Positions 49,166 to 59,024 of a stretch of DNA of 64,000 nucleotides are shown piece after piece. The notes below the pieces were generated by a model, which saw nothing but the letters and a program-made list of their open reading frames with translations, was not told the DNA's origin and made no database searches. The position numbers were made by a program, and so were the translations under genes. The DNA comes from Pseudoruegeria sp. SHC-113 (GTDB lineage: Bacteria > Pseudomonadota > Alphaproteobacteria > Rhodobacterales > Rhodobacteraceae): positions 62,001 through 126,000 of the forward strand of contig NZ_JAHUBR010000004.1 in assembly GCF_025376885.1 (NCBI RefSeq), written 5' to 3'. Within the stretch, counting starts at the first letter, position 1. Each line of letters opens with the position of its first letter.

Positions 49166-51217
49166 TCAGTTGAGATCGGCCAGGAGCCGCCCGTGCTCGC
49201 GGGTTTTGCGCGTGGCGTCGGCGAAGGTTTCTATGCCAACGGCTTCCATCATCGGCAGCAGCTTCAGGAAGACCTCCGCCGTGGCCAGCGCATCGCCATG
49301 GGCGGTGTGGCGCAGCTCGGGTGGGATGGTGACGCCGAGCCGGGCGGCGAGCGCGTCCAGCGAATGTTCGGCGGATTGTCCAAAGACGACGGCAGAGAGC
49401 AGCACGGTGTCGAGCACGGGGTGATCGAACATCTCGCCGAATTCTCCCTTGTCGCGGCGCAGCATGCCGATGTCGAACGGCGCGTTATGAGCCACCAGCA
49501 CCGCCCCTTCGCAATAGCTGTGGAAGCTCTTCCCGGCGGTTGCGAGGGTGGGGGCGCCGGCCACGTCGGCATCTGTAATGTGGTGGATCTTCGTACTTTC
49601 GGGCGGGATTGAGCGTTCCGGGTCCACCAACGTGTTGAAGATCTCCTCTGGCACGATGCGGCCATTGACGACACGGACTGCCGCGATCTGCACGATGCGA
49701 TCGCCTTTCAGCACCGAAAGCCCGGTGGTTTCGGTGTCAAACACCACGTAATGCAAGCTGCGCAACGGGCTTTGGGCGATGTCGGGCGGCGCAGGGCGCG
49801 TCATCAGGGCGAAATCATAGACGGCGGCGGAGCGGGCATAGGCCTGCGCGGCGGCTTCGGTTTCGGCGCGCGGCAGGGCGATGCGTAGGCGGTTGCGGCT
49901 GCCTGCCGCCCGTTCGGGCCAGCTTTCCGCGCCGTGCATGTCGAGCAGGCGGCGGCCTGTGATCGCCGGGAGGTTTTCGTCAAAGGGCGCGTCCAGCCAG
50001 TGCTCCAGTTCCGTCACCGCGAGCGGCGCGCCTTCCCACGTCAGATCGAGCGTGGCGCCGGGGCTGGCCTTGGACAGGCTCGCGGCAAGGCCCGTGCCGC
50101 GCCCTTCAGTGCGCAGGCGCTGCCCGAGGTTGCAGGCCAGCTGCACCAGCGCGTAGCCGTCGCAGGGCAGGCTCATCGGATCGGCGGTGGCTGTGAGGCC
50201 AAGGCCGGTTTCCAACCCGGCGCGGATGTCTTCGCCGTGGATCAAGGGCATCGGCCACCACGCGCCGGAGCGATCCTCCTGCGCGCGGCGGGCGATCAGC
50301 CCGTTGACCTGCGCCACCAAGGCTTCGGTCTCCTCGCGCATCGCCGTTTGCAGCGCCGTGCGTTCGGCCTCCTGCAGATCTTCGCCCAGCACGCTGAGGA
50401 TCGTTTGCAGCCCTGCGGCGGGGCGGCGCATTTCTTCCAGCGCGCTGGCCAAAGCGGCGTCGCGTTCAAGGTGGCCGCGCAGGGCTTTCGTGACGTCGCG
50501 CAGCACTAGCACATAGCCGCCGCGCCCGCCGGCGGAGAAGAGCCGCATGCGGCCCGAGAGCGTCTGCCCGCTTTCGGAGACGCAGAGTAGATCGCTCGCC
50601 TCCCCCGGCGCGCCGGAGCGCAGCCTTGCGTAGGCGTGCAGGATCGGGCCGGCTTTCAGCGTGCGGAAGACGGAGCGGTCCAGCCCCGGCGCGTGATCGC
50701 GGAACAGGGCGGCGGCGTGGCCGTTGTAAAACGCGATCTGGTGATCGTCGGTGCAGAGGATGATCCCGGCTTCCACATCCGACAGGATGGCTTCGAGCTG
50801 GGCGCGGTTGTCCTCGATGGCGCGGGTTTCGCGGGCGACGGCCTCCTGCAGGGCGGTCTTGGTTTCCGAAAGCCCGGTGGCCACGGCGGCGGCGGCGGGG
50901 GCGAGATCGCCGAGGTATTTAGCGGCGTCCCCATCCAGCCCATGGGCCACATCGGCATGGGCGCGGCTGCGCATGTCGCTTGCCAGCCGCTCCACGGCCT
51001 TGGCGACATGTTCGTCAAACAGCAACCAGATGCCCGCGCTCATGCCGAGGATGACGAAACAGGCCACGAGGCCGGAGGTGATAAAGGCCGAAAGCGCGGC
51101 CGGATCGCCGAGCCGCGTGTAGCCCCAGGCCAGCGCGCCGATCACCGCCGCCGCGCCACCGAGGCCCACCAGCGCGAAGAAGAGGAAAATGCGCAGCCGG
51201 AGGGAGAGGCGCTCCAT
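49166..51217 (-). CDS. Membrane PAS / degenerate histidine-kinase / DEDDh exonuclease fusion
   Basis: This 683-aa protein has two membrane helices (residues about 10-31 and 46-67), a HAMP-like linker, and a PAS domain (about 138-245). A kinase-like region follows (about 250-450). There the H-box reads EEMRRP with Glu261 in place of His; an N-box-like Asn363 remains, but no DxGxG box is evident. A complete exonuclease domain (about 488-655) follows: DTETTGL (Asp494, Glu496), HNAPFDIGML (Asp582), HTAHGD (His637, Asp642). It could be a signal-controlled nuclease for small nucleotides or DNA. It is the last gene of the acetate module, 2 bp after the response regulator. The start is the ATG at 51217. 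Confidence 0.88.
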   Translation of the reverse strand: MERLSLRLRIFLFFALVGLGGAAAVIGALAWGYTRLGDPAALSAFITSGLVACFVILGMSAGIWLLFDEHVAKAVERLASDMRSRAHADVAHGLDGDAAKYLGDLAPAAAAVATGLSETKTALQEAVARETRAIEDNRAQLEAILSDVEAGIILCTDDHQIAFYNGHAAALFRDHAPGLDRSVFRTLKAGPILHAYARLRSGAPGEASDLLCVSESGQTLSGRMRLFSAGGRGGYVLVLRDVTKALRGHLERDAALASALEEMRRPAAGLQTILSVLGEDLQEAERTALQTAMREETEALVAQVNGLIARRAQEDRSGAWWPMPLIHGEDIRAGLETGLGLTATADPMSLPCDGYALVQLACNLGQRLRTEGRGTGLAASLSKASPGATLDLTWEGAPLAVTELEHWLDAPFDENLPAITGRRLLDMHGAESWPERAAGSRNRLRIALPRAETEAAAQAYARSAAVYDFALMTRPAPPDIAQSPLRSLHYVVFDTETTGLSVLKGDRIVQIAAVRVVNGRIVPEEIFNTLVDPERSIPPESTKIHHITDADVAGAPTLATAGKSFHSYCEGAVLVAHNAPFDIGMLRRDKGEFGEMFDHPVLDTVLLSAVVFGQSAEHSLDALAARLGVTIPPELRHTAHGDALATAEVFLKLLPMMEAVGIETFADATRKTREHGRLLADLN

Positions 51218-51219
51218 GG

Positions 51220-51612
51220 TTACGCCACCGGCTGGCCGGGCTGCGTGCCGCCGATCAGCGCGGCGACCTTCTCGGTCAGGTCTTTCATGGCGAAGGGTTT
51301 GGCGAGGAAATCATCGGCCCCGAGCGCGAGCCCCTTGCGGCGGTCCATTTCGGAGCCGCGGGCCGTCATGATCAGGATCTTCACATCGTCAAAGGCGTGA
51401 TCATTGCGCACCGTCTGGCAGATCTCGTAGCCCGAGACTTCCGGCAGGGTGACATCGAGGATCACCAGATCGGGGTGCTGTTCGGTGATCGCGGCCACCG
51501 CCTTGCCGCCGTTGGCGACGCGGCTCATGGCATAGCCTTGCCGGCCCACCATGATCTCAAGCGCGGTCGCGATGTTGTCCTCGTCCTCCACGAGCAGTAC
51601 CGATTTTGCCAT
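51220..51612 (-). CDS. Stand-alone response regulator receiver protein
   Basis: This 130-aa CheY-like protein has the acidic pocket EDED (residues 9-12), phospho-acceptor Asp53 (VILDVTLPEV), Thr83 (MTARG) and Lys105 (KPFAM). It has no output domain. It overlaps nothing but lies 2 bp from the degenerate kinase-exonuclease fusion and 35 bp after the membrane protein. Because that kinase-like protein lacks the acceptor His, phosphate would have to come from elsewhere. Alternatively the regulator acts as an unphosphorylated partner. The ATG at 51612 precedes AKSVLLVEDED. Confidence 0.92.
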   Translation of the reverse strand: MAKSVLLVEDEDNIATALEIMVGRQGYAMSRVANGGKAVAAITEQHPDLVILDVTLPEVSGYEICQTVRNDHAFDDVKILIMTARGSEMDRRKGLALGADDFLAKPFAMKDLTEKVAALIGGTQPGQPVA

Positions 51613-51647
51613 GCGGACCTCCCGTCCCATATCTGCTGCGCGGGCCT

Positions 51648-52166
51648 TTAGGCCTTGCAGCTCAATGTCAAAAGCGCGTCTTCCTGTGCCAGGTCTTGCC
51701 AGCGCGCATCTGTAATCGCGCCGTTTTCGTCAAATTCGGCCCCCGCTACCAGCTCGGCCATGCGGCTGCCTGCGCAATCCACCAGAACGGGGACGCGGGC
51801 GAGCTGCTGCCAGCGGGTGTAGAGGTAGATGTCGGCCATCACCTGCCCCTCGACCTGATCGTTGCGGCGCAGGGTGGCCTGATCCACCGCCGAGAAGCGG
51901 TTCACGAAGGGTTTGGCGTAGGTCCAGGGGCGGTAGAAGGCGGAATGCTCATAGGTCTCGGCCACCTCGATGCCCTCGGGCAGGGTGAGCAGCGTGCGCG
52001 GATACCACGTGTATTCGCTCCAGATCGTGAAGCCGATCATCGCGGCACCGGCGGCCACGGGCGCAAGCCAGCGTGGCAGGCGGCCGCGCAGCATGTGGTT
52101 GAGCAGTAGGACGATCCCCGCCGCGCAGAAGCCGATTGCGATGGTGGAGATGAAATCGAAGAACAT
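51648..52166 (-). CDS. Uncharacterised membrane protein of the acetate module
   Basis: This 172-aa protein has two N-terminal helices (about residues 5-27 and 33-50), then a soluble domain with WSEYTWYPRTLLTLPEGIEV and RPWTYAKPFVNRF. A Cys lies in the domain (LVDCAGSRMAEL) and another near the C-terminus (LSCKA). I do not recognise the family. It is 4 bp downstream of the DUF294 gene and 35 bp upstream of the response regulator, so it probably belongs to the same signalling branch. Confidence 0.7.
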   Translation of the reverse strand: MFFDFISTIAIGFCAAGIVLLLNHMLRGRLPRWLAPVAAGAAMIGFTIWSEYTWYPRTLLTLPEGIEVAETYEHSAFYRPWTYAKPFVNRFSAVDQATLRRNDQVEGQVMADIYLYTRWQQLARVPVLVDCAGSRMAELVAGAEFDENGAITDARWQDLAQEDALLTLSCKA

Positions 52167-52170
52167 GGGC

Positions 52171-53997
52171 CTACCCGAGCATGGACCGGCCGTGGCCGAT
52201 CGAGGATTGCATGGTGCGGATCACCACGAACGCATCGCGCAGGTGGGACCGCTCGAAATCGGAGAGCGCGGCCGGGGGCAGGAAGTTGTCGGGCTTGCCG
52301 CCCGCCTTGATCTGCCCGGCCTGATGCTCCAGCCGAGTCTGCGCGATCAGGTCGTAGGCATCAACCAGATCCCGCGCACCGGTTTTCGATAGCACGCCCG
52401 CCTCGCCCGCCGAAAGCAGGCGTTCGCGGGTGTTGGCGGCGGTCAGCTGGCCCTGCAGCGCATAGACGCGGCCCAGATCCACCACCGGCACCACGCCGTT
52501 GTGTTTCAGATCCAGCGTGTTCTTGTGCTCGCCGGAGCGGATCGTGGCAAAGCCGCGCAAGAGCCCGAGCGGGGGCGTATGCTTGAGCGAATTGCTGACC
52601 ATATGGGCCACGAAAATCGAATTGCCCGCCGCCGCCTTCAGCGTGTCGGCCTGCAGGGTGTCAAACAGCGCCGCCGTCCCGCCGATGGGGCGCAGATCGA
52701 ACATCACCGAGGCCAGCATCTGTGCTTTCGGATCGGGTTTGGCGATCCAGTTCTGGAAGTAGCGCGTCCAGGTGGCCAGCGGCTGGCACCATTGCGGATT
52801 GGTCGCCATCATGTCGCCGGGGCAGTAGTAGTAGCCCGCCGCGTCCAGCCCGTCGGAGACGAATTTGGCGAAGGCGGTGAAATAGGTGCGGTCCGCCTCG
52901 GTGAAAGCGTCATCAAGGATCAGGCAGTTGTCCTGATCCGAAACGCCGGTCTGTTCGCGCCGCCCTTGCGAGCCGCAGGCCAGCCAGAGGTAGGGCACGG
53001 GCGCGGGGCCGAGCTTTTCTTCGGCCAGCGCGAGCAGGCGGCGGGTGACGGCATCGCCGACGTCGGTGATCAGCCGCGTCACCACCTGATGCGGGTTGCC
53101 GGAGCCCACAAGCTGCACCAGCATCTGCGGGATGCGCGCGGTGACGGCGGCCAGATCGAAGGCGTCGCGGGCCTCGGCCACATCGGCCACCAGCACCGAA
53201 GAGGAGATTGCCTGAAAGCGGGTGAGATCTGTCTGCGTGACCATGCCGATCAGGCAGCCACGGTCCACCACGGGCAGGTGGCCCACGCCCATTTCGAGCA
53301 TCGCGTGCAGCACGTCGGAGCCAAGCGCGCCGGGATCCAGCGTCACCGGGTCAGCCCGCATCACCTCGGAGACGGGCGCGCTGCCGGGGGTGCCATCGGC
53401 CACGGCCTTATAGGCGAGATCGCGGATCGTGAGGATGCCGACCATCTGGCCGCCCTCGCCGATCACCCCGAGGCTTGAGACACGATTGTCACGCATGATC
53501 CGCGCGGCTTCGGTGACGGAGGTCTTGGGCGTGCAGGTCAGCGGATCGCGCGCCATCAGATCGCCGATGCCGATGGTGCTCAGATCGCTGGGCGCGGCCA
53601 CGGTGGCGCGGGAACGGTCAAAGAACCGCGCGAAGCTGGCTTGGGTTTTCAGCAGGTGCAGGAAGACGCGGGCAGGCACCAGCAGCAGCTGCGCGTCGCC
53701 TGCGGCCCGCGCCGTGGTGACGGCCTTGCCGTCGCGCAGAAGGCCGCGTTCCCCGAAGGAGTTGCGGCTGCCGAGGTGGGAAAGCTGGACGCCGTTTGCG
53801 TCCTCCACATCCACCTCGCCGGAAAAGACGATGTAGAGCCCTTCTAGCTTGTCGCCCTGTTTGTAGACGGTTTCGCCGGCGGCGACTGTCTTGCAAGCGC
53901 TGGCCTCGCTGACGCGTTCCAGATCGGCGGCGGGAAGGGTGTCGTAGGGGTGGATGCCGGCCAGGAAGGCCGCGATCTCGGGGGCTCGCATGGGCAT
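52171..53997 (-). CDS. cNMP-binding / CBS-pair / DUF294 nucleotidyltransferase-like protein
   Basis: This 608-aa soluble protein has, in order: a cyclic-nucleotide-binding beta roll (about 15-125, with FGERGLLRDG), two CBS domains (about 143-200 and 207-265), a DUF294 nucleotidyltransferase-like domain (about 290-440), and a C-terminal DUF294 domain. The nucleotidyltransferase motif is CGSQGRREQTGVSDQDN, with Asp354 and Asp356 as the metal pair, as in GlnD and related enzymes. Such proteins are known beside acetate permease genes. Start ATG 53997 or 53991; upstream codons look non-coding. It is 118 bp after the symporter gene, with two hairpins between. Confidence 0.9.
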   Translation of the reverse strand: MPMRAPEIAAFLAGIHPYDTLPAADLERVSEASACKTVAAGETVYKQGDKLEGLYIVFSGEVDVEDANGVQLSHLGSRNSFGERGLLRDGKAVTTARAAGDAQLLLVPARVFLHLLKTQASFARFFDRSRATVAAPSDLSTIGIGDLMARDPLTCTPKTSVTEAARIMRDNRVSSLGVIGEGGQMVGILTIRDLAYKAVADGTPGSAPVSEVMRADPVTLDPGALGSDVLHAMLEMGVGHLPVVDRGCLIGMVTQTDLTRFQAISSSVLVADVAEARDAFDLAAVTARIPQMLVQLVGSGNPHQVVTRLITDVGDAVTRRLLALAEEKLGPAPVPYLWLACGSQGRREQTGVSDQDNCLILDDAFTEADRTYFTAFAKFVSDGLDAAGYYYCPGDMMATNPQWCQPLATWTRYFQNWIAKPDPKAQMLASVMFDLRPIGGTAALFDTLQADTLKAAAGNSIFVAHMVSNSLKHTPPLGLLRGFATIRSGEHKNTLDLKHNGVVPVVDLGRVYALQGQLTAANTRERLLSAGEAGVLSKTGARDLVDAYDLIAQTRLEHQAGQIKAGGKPDNFLPPAALSDFERSHLRDAFVVIRTMQSSIGHGRSMLG

Positions 53998-54030
53998 GGC
54001 ATCGACCTTTTGAAAAATCGGGTGTGGGGT

Positions 54031-54103
54031 GTGGCACGCCCAAAGCGGGAAGGGAGGGCGTGCCACGAGAGGGGCCGGCGCGGATCAGGGGGCCGCGCCG
54101 GCC
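54031..54103 (-). other. Two strong stem-loops between the symporter and DUF294 genes
   Basis: GGCCGGCGCGG with its complement (54073-54103, 11-bp stem) and GTGGCACGCCC with its complement (54031-54066, 11-bp stem) occur in tandem. Neither has a T-run. They could attenuate or process the transcript so that the signalling genes are expressed below the transport genes. Confidence 0.55.
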
Positions 54104-54115
54104 GCAAGGTAGGCC

Positions 54116-55900
54116 CTAGTGATCCTGGGCCACACCGGCACCGCGCGGGATACGGACGCTGGCAACCAGGTCCTTGATCTCTTGCGGCGTTTCTTCGGTC
54201 GCGTTGGACACCACATAGGCGGTCACGAAGTTCAGCAGCGCGCCGATGGCCCCGAAGGAGGTCGACTTGACAGTGAACAGGAGCGGATCCGCATCCGTGA
54301 AGCTGTTGGTGCCCGGGATGAAGAACCAACCCTTGTGCAGGAAGATGTAGACCAGCGTCACCACGAGACCAACGAGCATACCGGCAACGGCACCCTTGTT
54401 GTTCACGCGCTGGCTGAAGATCCCCATCATCAGCGCCGGGAAGATCGACGCGGCGGCCAGACCGAAGGCAAGAGCCACGGTTTGCGCTGCGAAGCCCGGA
54501 GGATTGAGGCCCAGGTAGGTTGCGACACAGATTGCCACGGCCATTGCGATCCGGGCGGACAGAAGCTCGCCTTTTTCGCTGATGTTGGGCGTGAACTGGC
54601 CCTTCATCAGGTCGTGCGACACGGCCGAGGAGATCGCGAGCAGCAGGCCGGCGGCGGTGGAGAGCGCGGCGGCGAGGCCACCGGCGGCCACGAGGCCGAT
54701 CACCCAGCCGGGCAGGTTTGCGATTTCCGGGTTGGCCAGCACGAGGATGTCGCGGTTGAAGTTGGTCAGTTCGTTGCCTTCCCAACCATTCGCGGCAGCC
54801 CGCTCAGCCAGAGCTTCGGACTTGTCGTTGTAGTACTGGATCTTGCCGTCGCCGTTCTTGTCTTCCCAGCCCAGCAGGCCGGTTTTCTGCCACGTCGCCA
54901 TCCAGGCGTATTGCTCGTCGGTTTCGATCTGCTCGACAGAGACAGCCTCGCCGGAGGTGCCGTTGGGCCACATCATCTCGGAGATGTTGAGGCGGGCCAT
55001 GGCGCCGACAGCCGGGGCGGTCAGGTAGAGCAGGGCGATGAAGACAAGCGCCCAGCCAGCGGACCAGCGTGCGTCAGACACTTTCGGCACGGTGAAGAAG
55101 CGCATGATCACGTGCGGAAGGCCGGCGGTGCCGATCATCAGCGAGAGCGTGAACAGGACCATGTTGAGCGTGTCGGCATGGTGCTCCGTGTAGGACGCGA
55201 AGCCAAGCTCCGTCACGATCTGGTCGAGCTTCGCCAGCAGCGGCTCGCCGGACGCGACGTGATCGCCAAACAGGCCAAGCGCCGGGATCGGGTTGCCCGT
55301 CAGTTGCAGCGAGATGAAGATCGCCGGGATGGTGTAGGCGGTGATCAGCACGACGTATTGCGCCACCTGGGTATAGGTCACACCCTTCATGCCGCCGAAC
55401 ACGGCGTAGGCGAACACAACGGCGGCACCGATCAGCAGGCCGGTGGTGTTGGACACTTCGAGGAAGCGGCCAAAGGCCACGCCAACGCCCGTCATCTGGC
55501 CGATCACGTAGGTCACCGAGGCGACGATCAGGCAGATCACGGCCACAAGGCGCGCGGTCGGGCTGTAGAAGCGGTCGCCGATGAACTCGGACACCGTGAA
55601 CTTGCCGAACTTGCGCAGGTAGGGCGCGAGCAGCAGGGCCAGCAGCACGTAGCCGCCCGTCCAGCCCATCAGGAAGGTGGAGTTGTCATAGCCGGTGAAG
55701 GCGATGAGGCCCGCCATCGAGATGAAGGAGGCGGCCGACATCCAGTCCGCCGCCGTGGCCATGCCGTTGGTGACAGGGTGAACACCGCGGCCAGCGGCGT
55801 AGAATTCCGACGTGGAACCCGCGCGGGCCCAGATCGCGATGCCGATGTAGAGCGCGAAGGATGCGCCCACGAACAGCAGGTTGATGGTAAACTGATCCAT
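54116..55900 (-). CDS. Sodium:solute symporter (SSS family, acetate/short-chain acid type)
   Basis: This 594-aa protein has about 13 helices. It resembles ActP/VC_2705-type carriers: FYAAGRGVHPVTNGMATAADWMSAASFISMAG (quoted in part: VTNGMATAADWMSAASF), KFTVSEFIGDRFYS, and GLAAALSTAAGLLLAISSAV. A long hydrophilic loop (about 325-370) contains an EF-hand-like DKNGDGKIQYY. It lies 5 bp after the DUF4212 partner, the usual pair, and is expected to import acetate, propionate or lactate with Na+. Confidence 0.93.
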   Translation of the reverse strand: MDQFTINLLFVGASFALYIGIAIWARAGSTSEFYAAGRGVHPVTNGMATAADWMSAASFISMAGLIAFTGYDNSTFLMGWTGGYVLLALLLAPYLRKFGKFTVSEFIGDRFYSPTARLVAVICLIVASVTYVIGQMTGVGVAFGRFLEVSNTTGLLIGAAVVFAYAVFGGMKGVTYTQVAQYVVLITAYTIPAIFISLQLTGNPIPALGLFGDHVASGEPLLAKLDQIVTELGFASYTEHHADTLNMVLFTLSLMIGTAGLPHVIMRFFTVPKVSDARWSAGWALVFIALLYLTAPAVGAMARLNISEMMWPNGTSGEAVSVEQIETDEQYAWMATWQKTGLLGWEDKNGDGKIQYYNDKSEALAERAAANGWEGNELTNFNRDILVLANPEIANLPGWVIGLVAAGGLAAALSTAAGLLLAISSAVSHDLMKGQFTPNISEKGELLSARIAMAVAICVATYLGLNPPGFAAQTVALAFGLAAASIFPALMMGIFSQRVNNKGAVAGMLVGLVVTLVYIFLHKGWFFIPGTNSFTDADPLLFTVKSTSFGAIGALLNFVTAYVVSNATEETPQEIKDLVASVRIPRGAGVAQDH

Positions 55901-55905
55901 GGGAT

Positions 55906-56166
55906 TTACTCCTCCTCAACGCCGTGTTCGGCGTCGAGCTTGTTCATCTTCCAGGCGTAGAAGAAAATCAGCGCCAGGAAGACGAGGATCGAGCCCTGTT
56001 GGGCAAACCAGAAGCCAAGGTCTGTCCCGCCGACAGGAATGCCCGACAGCATCGGGCGCAGCAGGATGCCAAAGCCAAACGAAACCAGTGCCCAGATCAC
56101 AAGACAAATCTTGATGATCCGGAGGTTCGCCGACCAATAGTCGTTATCGGATGGATTTTCCGCCAT
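55906..56166 (-). CDS. DUF4212 small membrane subunit
   Basis: This 86-aa protein has two helices (IIKICLVIWALVSFGFGILL and QQGSILVFLALIFFYAWKM) in the DUF4212 pattern, with YWSANLR before the first. It is found together with VC_2705-type symporters and probably assists or regulates them. The ATG at 56166 is preferred to GTG at 56169. It overlaps nothing, 5 bp before the symporter gene. Confidence 0.92.
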   Translation of the reverse strand: MAENPSDNDYWSANLRIIKICLVIWALVSFGFGILLRPMLSGIPVGGTDLGFWFAQQGSILVFLALIFFYAWKMNKLDAEHGVEEE

Positions 56167-56226
56167 CACGTCTTCTCCCTCTATTGTGGTGATCGGCGCC
56201 CCTCTCCTTTGGGCACCTTTCTCCGG

Positions 56227-56916
56227 TTAGGCCGAAACGCCCGCGACGATCGTGCCAAGGGCTTCGGTGATGGCGTCGATCGACCCCATCGCATCCACCG
56301 ACTTAAGCAGTCCCTTTTCGTCGTAATAGGCAATCAGCGGAGCCGTCTGGGCGTGGTAGGCGGCAAGCCGTTCACGCACCGTCTCGGCGTTATCGTCAGC
56401 GCGGCGCTTGAATTCCGTGCCTCCGCATTTGTCACAGACACCCGCTTTTGCCGGGGCCTTGAATGTATCGTGGTAGCCTTCCCCGCAGGCTGCGCAGGTG
56501 GAGCGGCCCGAGATGCGCTCGACCATGGCCTCGTCGTCCACCTCAAGCGAGATGACGCAATCGACCTTGGTGCCGGCTTCAGCCAGCAGCGCGCCAAGCG
56601 CGTCGGCCTGGCCGATGGTGCGGGGGAAGCCATCAAGGATGACTCCAGAGGTCACATCCGGCTCGCCCATGCGATCTTTCAGGATCGCCAGAACGATCTC
56701 GTCCGACACCAGCCCGCCCGCTTCCATCACGGCCTTGGCCTTGCGGCCCGCTTCGGTCCCGGCGGCCACCGCGGCGCGGAGGAGGTCGCCTGTGGACAGC
56801 TGCACGAGGCCGAAGCGGGATTCGAGGATCCGTGCCTGGGTGCCTTTGCCGGCCCCCGGGGGGCCAAGCAGGATGAGGGTCACGGGTGTTGCGGGCTGGG
56901 GCTGAACGCTGTCCAT
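56227..56916 (-). CDS. adk: Adenylate kinase (zinc-LID type)
   Basis: Adk (229 aa) interconverts ATP + AMP and 2 ADP. It has the P-loop GPPGAGKGTQA (about residues 19-29), LSTGDLLRAA, VILDGFPRT, and a LID with four Cys (CAACGEGY and CDKCGG) for zinc. It lies 2 bp downstream of acs, so AMP from acetate activation is recycled by a co-expressed enzyme. The usual adk sits in the ribosomal operon, so this may be a second copy. Confidence 0.93.
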   Translation of the reverse strand: MDSVQPQPATPVTLILLGPPGAGKGTQARILESRFGLVQLSTGDLLRAAVAAGTEAGRKAKAVMEAGGLVSDEIVLAILKDRMGEPDVTSGVILDGFPRTIGQADALGALLAEAGTKVDCVISLEVDDEAMVERISGRSTCAACGEGYHDTFKAPAKAGVCDKCGGTEFKRRADDNAETVRERLAAYHAQTAPLIAYYDEKGLLKSVDAMGSIDAITEALGTIVAGVSA

Positions 56917-56918
56917 GA

Positions 56919-58880
56919 TCAGGTGGCCTTGTTCATGCGGTTTTCGATCAGATCATCCACCACGGCAGGCTCTGCCAGCGTGGAGGTATCGCCCAGAGCG
57001 CCGAAATCATCCTCGGCGATCTTGCGCAGGATGCGGCGCATGATCTTGCCGGAGCGGGTTTTCGGCAGGCCCGGTGCCCATTGGATCAGATCTGGCGAAG
57101 CGATGGGGCCGATCTCGGTGCGCACCCAGGTGCGCAGCTCCTTGCGCAGTTCCTCGGAAGGCTCGACGCCGTTCATCAGGGTCACGTAGCAGTAGATTCC
57201 CTGACCTTTCACGTCGTGCGGGTAGCCCACCACGGCGGCCTCGGCCACTTTGGCGTGCGCCACGAGCGCGCTTTCCACTTCGGCGGTGCCCATGCGGTGC
57301 CCGGAGACGTTGATCACGTCATCCACGCGCCCTGTGATCCAGTAATCGCCATCGGCGTCGCGGCGGCAGCCGTCACCGGCGAAGTAGTAGCCTTTGTAGT
57401 CGGAGAAATAGGTTTTCTGGAACCGCTCGTGATCGCCCCAGACGGTGCGCATCTGGCCGGGCCAGCTTTCCTTCAGCGCCAGCACGCCCTCGGCAGCGGT
57501 TTCGTGGATCTCTTCGCCGGTCTGGGCGTCCAGAACCACCGGGTGCACGCCGAAGAAGGGCTTCTGCGCGGAGCCGGGCTTGGTGGCATGGGCGCCGGGC
57601 TGCGGGGTCAGCATGTGGCCGCCGGTTTCGGTCTGCCACCATGTGTCCACGATCGGGCATTTGCCCTTGCCGACAACCTCGTTGTACCAGTTCCAGGCTT
57701 CCGGGTTGATTGGCTCGCCCACGGTGCCGAGCAGTTTCAGATCGCTCAGGTCGTATTTCTCGACGAACTCGGTGCCCTGACCCATCAGCGCGCGGATGGC
57801 GGTGGGGGCGGTGTAGAACTGGTTGACCTTGTGCTTCTCACAAACAGCCCAGAAGCGGCCTGCGTCCGGGTAGGTCGGTACGCCTTCGAACATCAGCGTG
57901 GTGCCGCCATTGGCTAGCGGGCCATAGACGATGTAGCTGTGGCCGGTGACCCAGCCCACATCGGCGGTGCACCAGTAGATGTCGCCCTCGTGGTAATCGA
58001 AGGTGTATTGATGCGTCATCGCCGCGTAGACGAGATAACCACCGGAGCAATGCACCACGCCCTTGGGCTGGCCGGTGGAGCCGGAGGTGTAGAGGATGAA
58101 GAGCGGATCCTCGGCGTTCATCTCGGCGGGCGCGCAGACGTCAGAAGCTTCCAGCGCCATCTCGTTGTAGTCGTAATCGCGATCCGCGATCCACGTCGTC
58201 TGCCCGCCGGTACGCTTCACCACGAGGCATTTCACCGTGTCTTTGCAGTGCAGTAGGGCGGCGTCGGCGTTGGATTTCAGCGGCGTCTTGCGGCCACCGC
58301 GCGGGGCTTCATCGGCGGTGATGAGAACCTTGGCGTCGCTGCCGTTGACACGGGCTGCCAAAGCATCGGGGCTGAAGCCTGCGAAGACGATCGAGTGGAT
58401 CGCCCCGATCCGGGCGCAGGCCAGCATGGCATAGGCGGCTTCCGGGATCATCGGGAGGTAAATGACAACCCGGTCGCCTTTACGCACGCCCAGCTCTTCC
58501 AGGATGTTGGCCATCCGGCAGACGCTGGTGTGCAGCTGTTTGTAGGTGATGTGCTTGGCCTCTTCCTCCGGGGAGTCGGGCTCCCAGATGATGGCCGTCT
58601 GATCGCCTCGGGTGGCGAGGTGGCGGTCGATGCAGTTGGCGGCGACGTTAAGGGTGCCGTCCTCGAACCATTTGATGTCGACATTGCCGAACTCGAAGCT
58701 GGCGTTCTTCACCTTGGTGAAGGGTTTGATCCAGTCGATTCGCTTGCCGTGCTCTGCCCAGAAGGCGTCCGGATCGCTGATGGATGCTGCGTACATCGCA
58801 TCGTATTTGGCGGCGTCGAGATGGGCGTTTGCAATGAAATCCGCGGAAGGCGCGTAAGTGGTTGGCGCAGAATCGGTCAT
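56919..58880 (-). CDS. acs: Acetyl-CoA synthetase
   Basis: Acs (653 aa, normal) converts acetate, CoA and ATP to acetyl-CoA, AMP and PPi. Signatures are [53 protein letters not shown] and [13 protein letters not shown] with the conserved acetylatable Lys. Start ATG 58880 with GGGGGGA upstream; the frame to 58967 has no support. It is the first gene of an eight-gene run on this strand. Confidence 0.97.
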
Positions 58881-59024
58881 GAGAATGATCCCCCCTGAAA
58901 TGCTGTATCGCGGCTGCTCCAACCAGCGCGATTCCTCCGATGCTGTAAATCGTAAAGGATCAGCCAATACACTGAAAAGCTTTTATTTTTCTGTAAAACA
59001 ATTTGACTATATCACGCGTATTTG

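Follow-up and report, generated by a model that had tools for sequence, protein, structure and literature searches.

A histidine kinase fold without kinase residues, joined to a DEDDh exonuclease, suggests a docking switch in an acetate-uptake gene cluster

What does a histidine kinase core that has lost its kinase residues do when it is joined to a nuclease? The question is raised by a gene of Pseudoruegeria sp. SHC-113, found in a 64,000-nt stretch of contig NZ_JAHUBR010000004.1 (hereafter the window). In the literature searched, no published description of a pseudokinase-exonuclease fusion was found. The sequences suggest that, in an acetate-uptake gene cluster, bacteria have a nuclease whose docking switch is a broken kinase.

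The fusion protein and its two halves

A first-pass annotation, made from the letters alone, had described a single polypeptide with two membrane helices, a PAS domain, a degenerate kinase core and an exonuclease, and had proposed a structure prediction. The reading frame is exactly as described, and an AF2 model of the full protein (built on a 36-member alignment; pLDDT 86) gives a transmembrane hairpin, a signalling helix and PAS, DHp-like, CA-like and DEDDh domains:

49166..51217, minus strand: 683-aa membrane-anchored PAS / pseudo-histidine-kinase / DEDDh exonuclease (open reading frame, domain matches, AF2)
51011..51202, minus strand: two transmembrane helices, residues about 6-69 (hydrophobicity; AF2)
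50780..50905, minus strand: signalling helix, putative coiled coil, residues 105-146 (AF2 model)
50495..50767, minus strand: PAS domain, residues 151-241 (AF2 fold; PAS_4 among relatives)
50267..50491, minus strand: DHp-like helical hairpin, residues 243-317, with Glu261 at the phospho-acceptor site and a conserved Arg264 at His+3 (profile, fold, alignment)
49874..50245, minus strand: CA-like (HATPase-fold) domain, residues 325-448, without N-box and G-boxes, with invariant Trp394 and Trp407 (profile, fold, alignment)
49202..49762, minus strand: DEDDh 3'-5' exonuclease domain, residues 486-672, or 489-682 by the AF2 model, catalytic D494, E496, D582, H637 and D642 (Pfam RNase_T, fold, conservation)

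The membrane helices are seen both as hydrophobic windows (starting at residues 4-15 and 38-51) and as model helices (6-36 and 39-87), and the helix that follows would, to judge from the model, form a coiled coil. HMM searches, also proposed earlier, had a mixed outcome: a Pfam scan of the single sequence matched RNase_T (PF00929, E 1.3e-37) but missed HisKA and HATPase, and found PAS only as PAS_9 at E 0.097. The PAS domain is nevertheless borne out by its fold and by PAS_4 matches in 29 of 36 relatives.

The kinase-like core is confirmed as well. Compared with the PDB, the family profile matched histidine kinases only (5c93, E 1.4e-11; 4u7n, 1.9e-11; DivL, 4q20, 5.2e-7), and hhalign of the family core against eight kinases of the same genome gave 97.3% (E 2.5e-11, 218 columns). 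Since the full-length fold search was dominated by the exonuclease, the core was folded and searched separately (pLDDT 91), which gave Z scores of up to 13.9 against kinase CA domains and 13.2 against DivL. By profile and fold comparison, then, the DHp-CA fold of the core is homologous to that of histidine kinases (HisKA plus HATPase_c).

Kinase chemistry has been lost from this core across phyla. Aligning SHELR with LEEMR puts Glu261 at the H-box position, as the annotation had read it; among 71 core-bearing relatives this site is Asp or Glu in 60 and His, which the annotation had named as contrary evidence, in none, while Arg264 is Arg in 68. The G-boxes are absent from the core in the alignment of 36 relatives, where GxGLG was not found and the Asp site of the G1 box (DxGxG) is Trp in 36/36, in keeping with the earlier reading. 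The partial N-box reported at the same time did not survive: Asn363 is Asn in only 2 of the 36, and there is therefore no conserved remnant. With His found nowhere, Arg264 kept and Trp at the G1 Asp site, the dead state is evidently old and constrained. Recent decay of an intact kinase is ruled out, since the His is missing from every relative and several phyla share the dead state. The dead CA domain has two invariant tryptophans, Trp394 in place of the G1-box Asp and Trp407, and the pocket that contains them may hold some non-ATP ligand.

In the other half of the protein, the five DEDDh residues are where they had been placed and are invariant in 137/137 relatives; the best fold matches are PolC (Z 25) and the DnaQ exonuclease (Z 21.9). 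From its sequence, the domain is predicted to act as a DEDDh 3'-5' exonuclease (RNase_T superfamily), and by precedent the substrate is most likely RNA. DnaQ, PolC and RNase T share its catalytic fold and five residues, but the fusion differs from them in being membrane-anchored and joined to a pseudokinase. A plain Pol III proofreading subunit, an objection the annotation had itself raised, is ruled out: the fusion scores 111.6 bits against the DnaQ equivalog TIGR01406, far under its cut-off of 222.7, and the genome has a separate dnaQ, whose product reaches 277.5.

The exonuclease family is present in 86 of 198 Rhodobacteraceae genomes, with the core in roughly 35 and as a short TM-PAS-exonuclease form in about 50 (in G025 the form consists of TM and exonuclease and lacks PAS). 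Of 299 genomes sampled across the phylum, 41 have the family, short forms counted. Full-length relatives are also found in Beta- and Gammaproteobacteria, Desulfuromonadales, Nitrospirota, Acidobacteriota and Chloroflexota MAGs, with identities of about 26-35%.

A receiver-only regulator and the DHp helices

What could a dead kinase core respond to? The fusion gene is the last of an apparent operon that begins with acs; the genes before it are listed here from the fusion gene upstream:

51220..51630, minus strand: stand-alone CheY-like response regulator, 136 aa, phosphorylation residues intact (Response_reg, 3.6e-27)
51648..52166, minus strand: 172-aa protein with two predicted TM segments, unmatched in Pfam and NCBIfam; nearly all Rhodobacteraceae loci have it, whichever the architecture
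52171..54066, minus strand: cNMP-CBS-DUF294 (GlnD-like) nucleotidyltransferase, motif GSQGRREQTGVSDQD intact (Pfam and motif check)
54116..55900, minus strand: VC_2705-family sodium/solute symporter (NCBIfam TIGR03648, 820 bits)
55906..56169, minus strand: DUF4212 symporter small subunit (TIGR03647, PF13937)
56227..56916, minus strand: adenylate kinase, adk (PF00406, 1.1e-55)
56919..58967, minus strand: acetyl-CoA synthetase, acs (AMP-binding, ACAS_N)

The 172-aa protein also adjoins the symporter in a gammaproteobacterial MAG (L114). The regulator gene stops 2 nt upstream of the fusion gene, and in a Pfam scan its product is receiver-only, without an output domain. The annotation's suggestion of a sensory, non-phosphorylating module on a nuclease is supported, but this adjacent regulator, the main clue, had been missed.

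Collecting homologues, as the annotation had advised, gave 137 loci with upstream sequence, in which the regulator and each domain were detected with HMMs. Where the DHp half is present (71 loci), the regulator is adjacent in 64 and not in 7; where it is absent (66 loci), there is no adjacent regulator in 65, the single exception (L048) being a protein whose DHp scores weakly though the region is full length. Ten loci have kept the CA-like part and lost DHp, and all ten are without an adjacent regulator, so that the link is to the docking (DHp) helices. Evolutionary distances of the regulator agree, with partial correlations of 0.56 for DHp, 0.46 for CA and 0.38 for PAS; the correlation of regulator with DHp HMM scores was uninformative, since in Rhodobacteraceae the scores of PAS and exonuclease show an equal correlation. 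On the tree there are about 15 DHp changes, but joint gain or loss of adjacent genes can have other causes, and supported branches yield only 6 independent pairs (on average 5.5 in the same direction, 0 opposite, median p 0.03).

Nor has the regulator simply moved. A whole-genome search found no ortholog in 36/36 core-less genomes, one of them from a species of the window's genus, where the best matches (a paralog beside an SLC5 kinase, or other regulators) were at E 2e-29 or weaker, and found it in 7/7 controls at E 1e-37 or better; relocation is thereby ruled out for these 36 genomes. The window's own genus has one genome with both core and regulator (G001) and one with neither (G002).

The seven cores without an adjacent regulator are of several kinds. 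In two Accumulibacter loci (L119, L129) a kinase, a regulator and a second copy lie elsewhere in the genome; two more have Gln in place of Arg264 (L137, L140), one has a weak DHp (L099), and for the last two (L130, L134) no regulator was found in the genome. A partial exception in reverse is G031, in which the exonuclease is core-less and a regulator and kinase lie about 1.5 kb off, past a divergent gene. The core is a conserved module tied to the upstream regulator gene, the two being almost always kept and lost jointly. Accumulibacter has two family copies, one with kinase and regulator (L237, L238) and one without (L119, L129). In L223 (G024 contig 164), a core-bearing relative that retains the regulator is split within the CA-like region by what looks like a frameshift; the genome is fragmented, and the break may be an error of sequencing.

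A candidate kinase and a proposed switch

If the regulator is the input, what phosphorylates it? A candidate is found in about 20 distant loci, where an intact kinase adjoins the regulator and the gene order is mostly kinase-regulator-exonuclease. This kinase is about 920 aa long and has HisKA, HATPase and the H-box [ST]HELRTP. Its N-terminus is transporter-like (SLC5-type, CrbS-like), matching Pfam SSF in one protein (0.00017) and being homologous in all. In the Rhodobacteraceae, the window's genome among them, the SLC5 kinase is unlinked and always lies beside its own receiver-only regulator. In one locus (L133), what looked like a fusion of the regulator with a 1062-aa protein was an artefact of a long out-of-frame ORF, the real kinase lying in a separate frame.

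Several known systems resemble this arrangement in part. In Caulobacter, the pseudokinase DivL senses DivK~P via its DHp, with Tyr550 replacing His and Arg553 as the proposed switch (PMC4211667). Like the fusion, DivL has a histidine kinase fold without the His, PAS in front, a stand-alone regulator and Arg at His+3, and in Rhodobacterales DivK and the DivL pseudokinase core have been lost jointly (PMC9430884). The cores are related in sequence (E 5e-7), but in architecture and gene neighbourhood the two proteins are unlike, the fusion has Glu/Asp where DivL has Tyr, and DivL controls the kinase CckA, whereas here the dead core is joined to an exonuclease. CrbS/CrbR (MxtR/ErdR) and RpuS/R, systems with SLC5/STAC histidine kinases (PMC5715377, PMC9100948), have a transporter-fused kinase, as in the distant loci, and the same acetate/pyruvate neighbourhood; CrbR, however, is a LuxR-type DNA-binding regulator, while the regulator in the window is receiver-only, with 136 aa and a nuclease as its proposed output. 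In P. putida, PP_0353, an RNase_T-family protein, shares an operon with PP_0354, which has CBS domains; the SLC5 kinase MxtR has PP_0353 among its targets, and the protein influences growth on pyruvate (PMC9927547). PP_0353 is a possible relative, likened to the fusion by published description, in which it is simply an RNase_T protein under transcriptional control and no fused PAS or pseudokinase is reported (PMC9927547). Together with the gene neighbourhood, the pyruvate phenotype points to short monocarboxylate metabolism.

The 683-aa protein is, on balance, probably a membrane-anchored 3'-5' exonuclease gated by a response regulator, docking being inferred from co-inheritance. The transporter-fused kinase would sense a short monocarboxylate, for example acetate or pyruvate, and phosphorylate the stand-alone receiver (51220-51630), which, like DivK~P on DivL, would dock on the pseudokinase at its DHp hairpin. 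With Glu or Asp for His at 261, no phosphate would be transferred, and Arg264 would take the role of DivL Arg553. The resulting change, passed to the CA-like part and combined with PAS input, would turn the exonuclease on or off at the membrane, beside the symporter and the DUF294 nucleotidyltransferase. Docking is the most economical model because of the co-inheritance, the receiver without an output domain, the conserved dead docking module and the DivL/DivK precedent; since regulator presence follows the DHp half, the phosphorylated regulator is the likely input, besides PAS. On the other hand, core-less forms are common, so regulator input must be dispensable, and in the half or so of Rhodobacteraceae relatives without a core, PAS regulation alone must suffice.

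Those same core-less proteins, which have kept TM-PAS-exonuclease, together with several intermediates in which the core is decaying (L008, L014, L057, L062), are what one would expect if the core were a relic or spacer, left by a kinase that decayed once it had been fused. The nuclease would then answer only to PAS and membrane localisation, and the regulator would act elsewhere. Neutral decay, however, does not fit a core whose length, fold, R264, W394 and W407 are conserved in several phyla with the His missing throughout, nor does a relic explain why the core and one specific neighbour gene disappear together, and this explanation is unlikely. Alternatively, the core might act on the regulator, as phosphatase or sink, the fusion merely co-localising the two. 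Histidine kinase-fold modules can work as phosphatases, and the co-inheritance, being symmetrical, gives no direction; but the HisKA phosphatase residues (His, and Thr/Asn at His+4) and the ATP-binding boxes are missing, the regulator has no output domain of its own, and neither activity is found in DivL, the nearest system that has been studied (PMC4211667); this is the least probable of the alternatives.

A different kind of explanation concerns the enzyme itself, which could be a phosphodiesterase and not a nucleic-acid exonuclease. It would take off the nucleotides that the DUF294 enzyme attaches, perhaps to one of the uptake proteins. DUF294 is found in 104 of 113 neighbourhoods of the exonuclease family, the nucleotidyltransferase motif is intact, and in two loci (L092, 4509-6776; L166, 6155-8290) one ORF joins the DEDDh exonuclease to a CBS-DUF294 nucleotidyltransferase. 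We know of no case in which a nucleotidyltransferase is paired with a DEDDh enzyme that removes the nucleotide, and the close fold match to DNA/RNA exonucleases speaks against such a cycle, which we regard as improbable, if slightly less so than the phosphatase or sink.

Regulator-gated docking would have some wider consequences. The authors of the DivL study asked how widely dead kinases serve as sensors of phosphorylated regulators (PMC4211667), and this family would be such a case in several phyla, with a plain enzyme output and a defined partner gene. As natural variants have lost both parts and the partner is defined, the docking idea is biochemically testable. It would also give a possible input to the orphan pair of exonuclease and nucleotidyltransferase found alongside genes for acetate and pyruvate uptake.

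Could there be other outputs of this kind? In 20 of 21 Rhodobacteraceae SLC5 kinase loci, an ScfR-type transcription factor adjoins the kinase and its regulator, and its middle segment is DHp-like (hhalign 91%, E 9e-7 against the fusion core); it may be a second output protein, read through regulator docking. A multi-phylum class of two-component systems, in which a receiver-only regulator docks on dead DHp modules inside output proteins (the membrane exonuclease and possibly the ScfR-type factor), is conceivable, though we hold this broader proposal only tentatively; if true, the usual kinase-to-regulator direction would be reversed, with the nuclease as a directly gated output. The ScfR-type factor (HTH_3 plus ScfRs) lies at 2016-3323 of L236 (G000 contig 1, about 1509015-1510322) and is also present in L239-L258.
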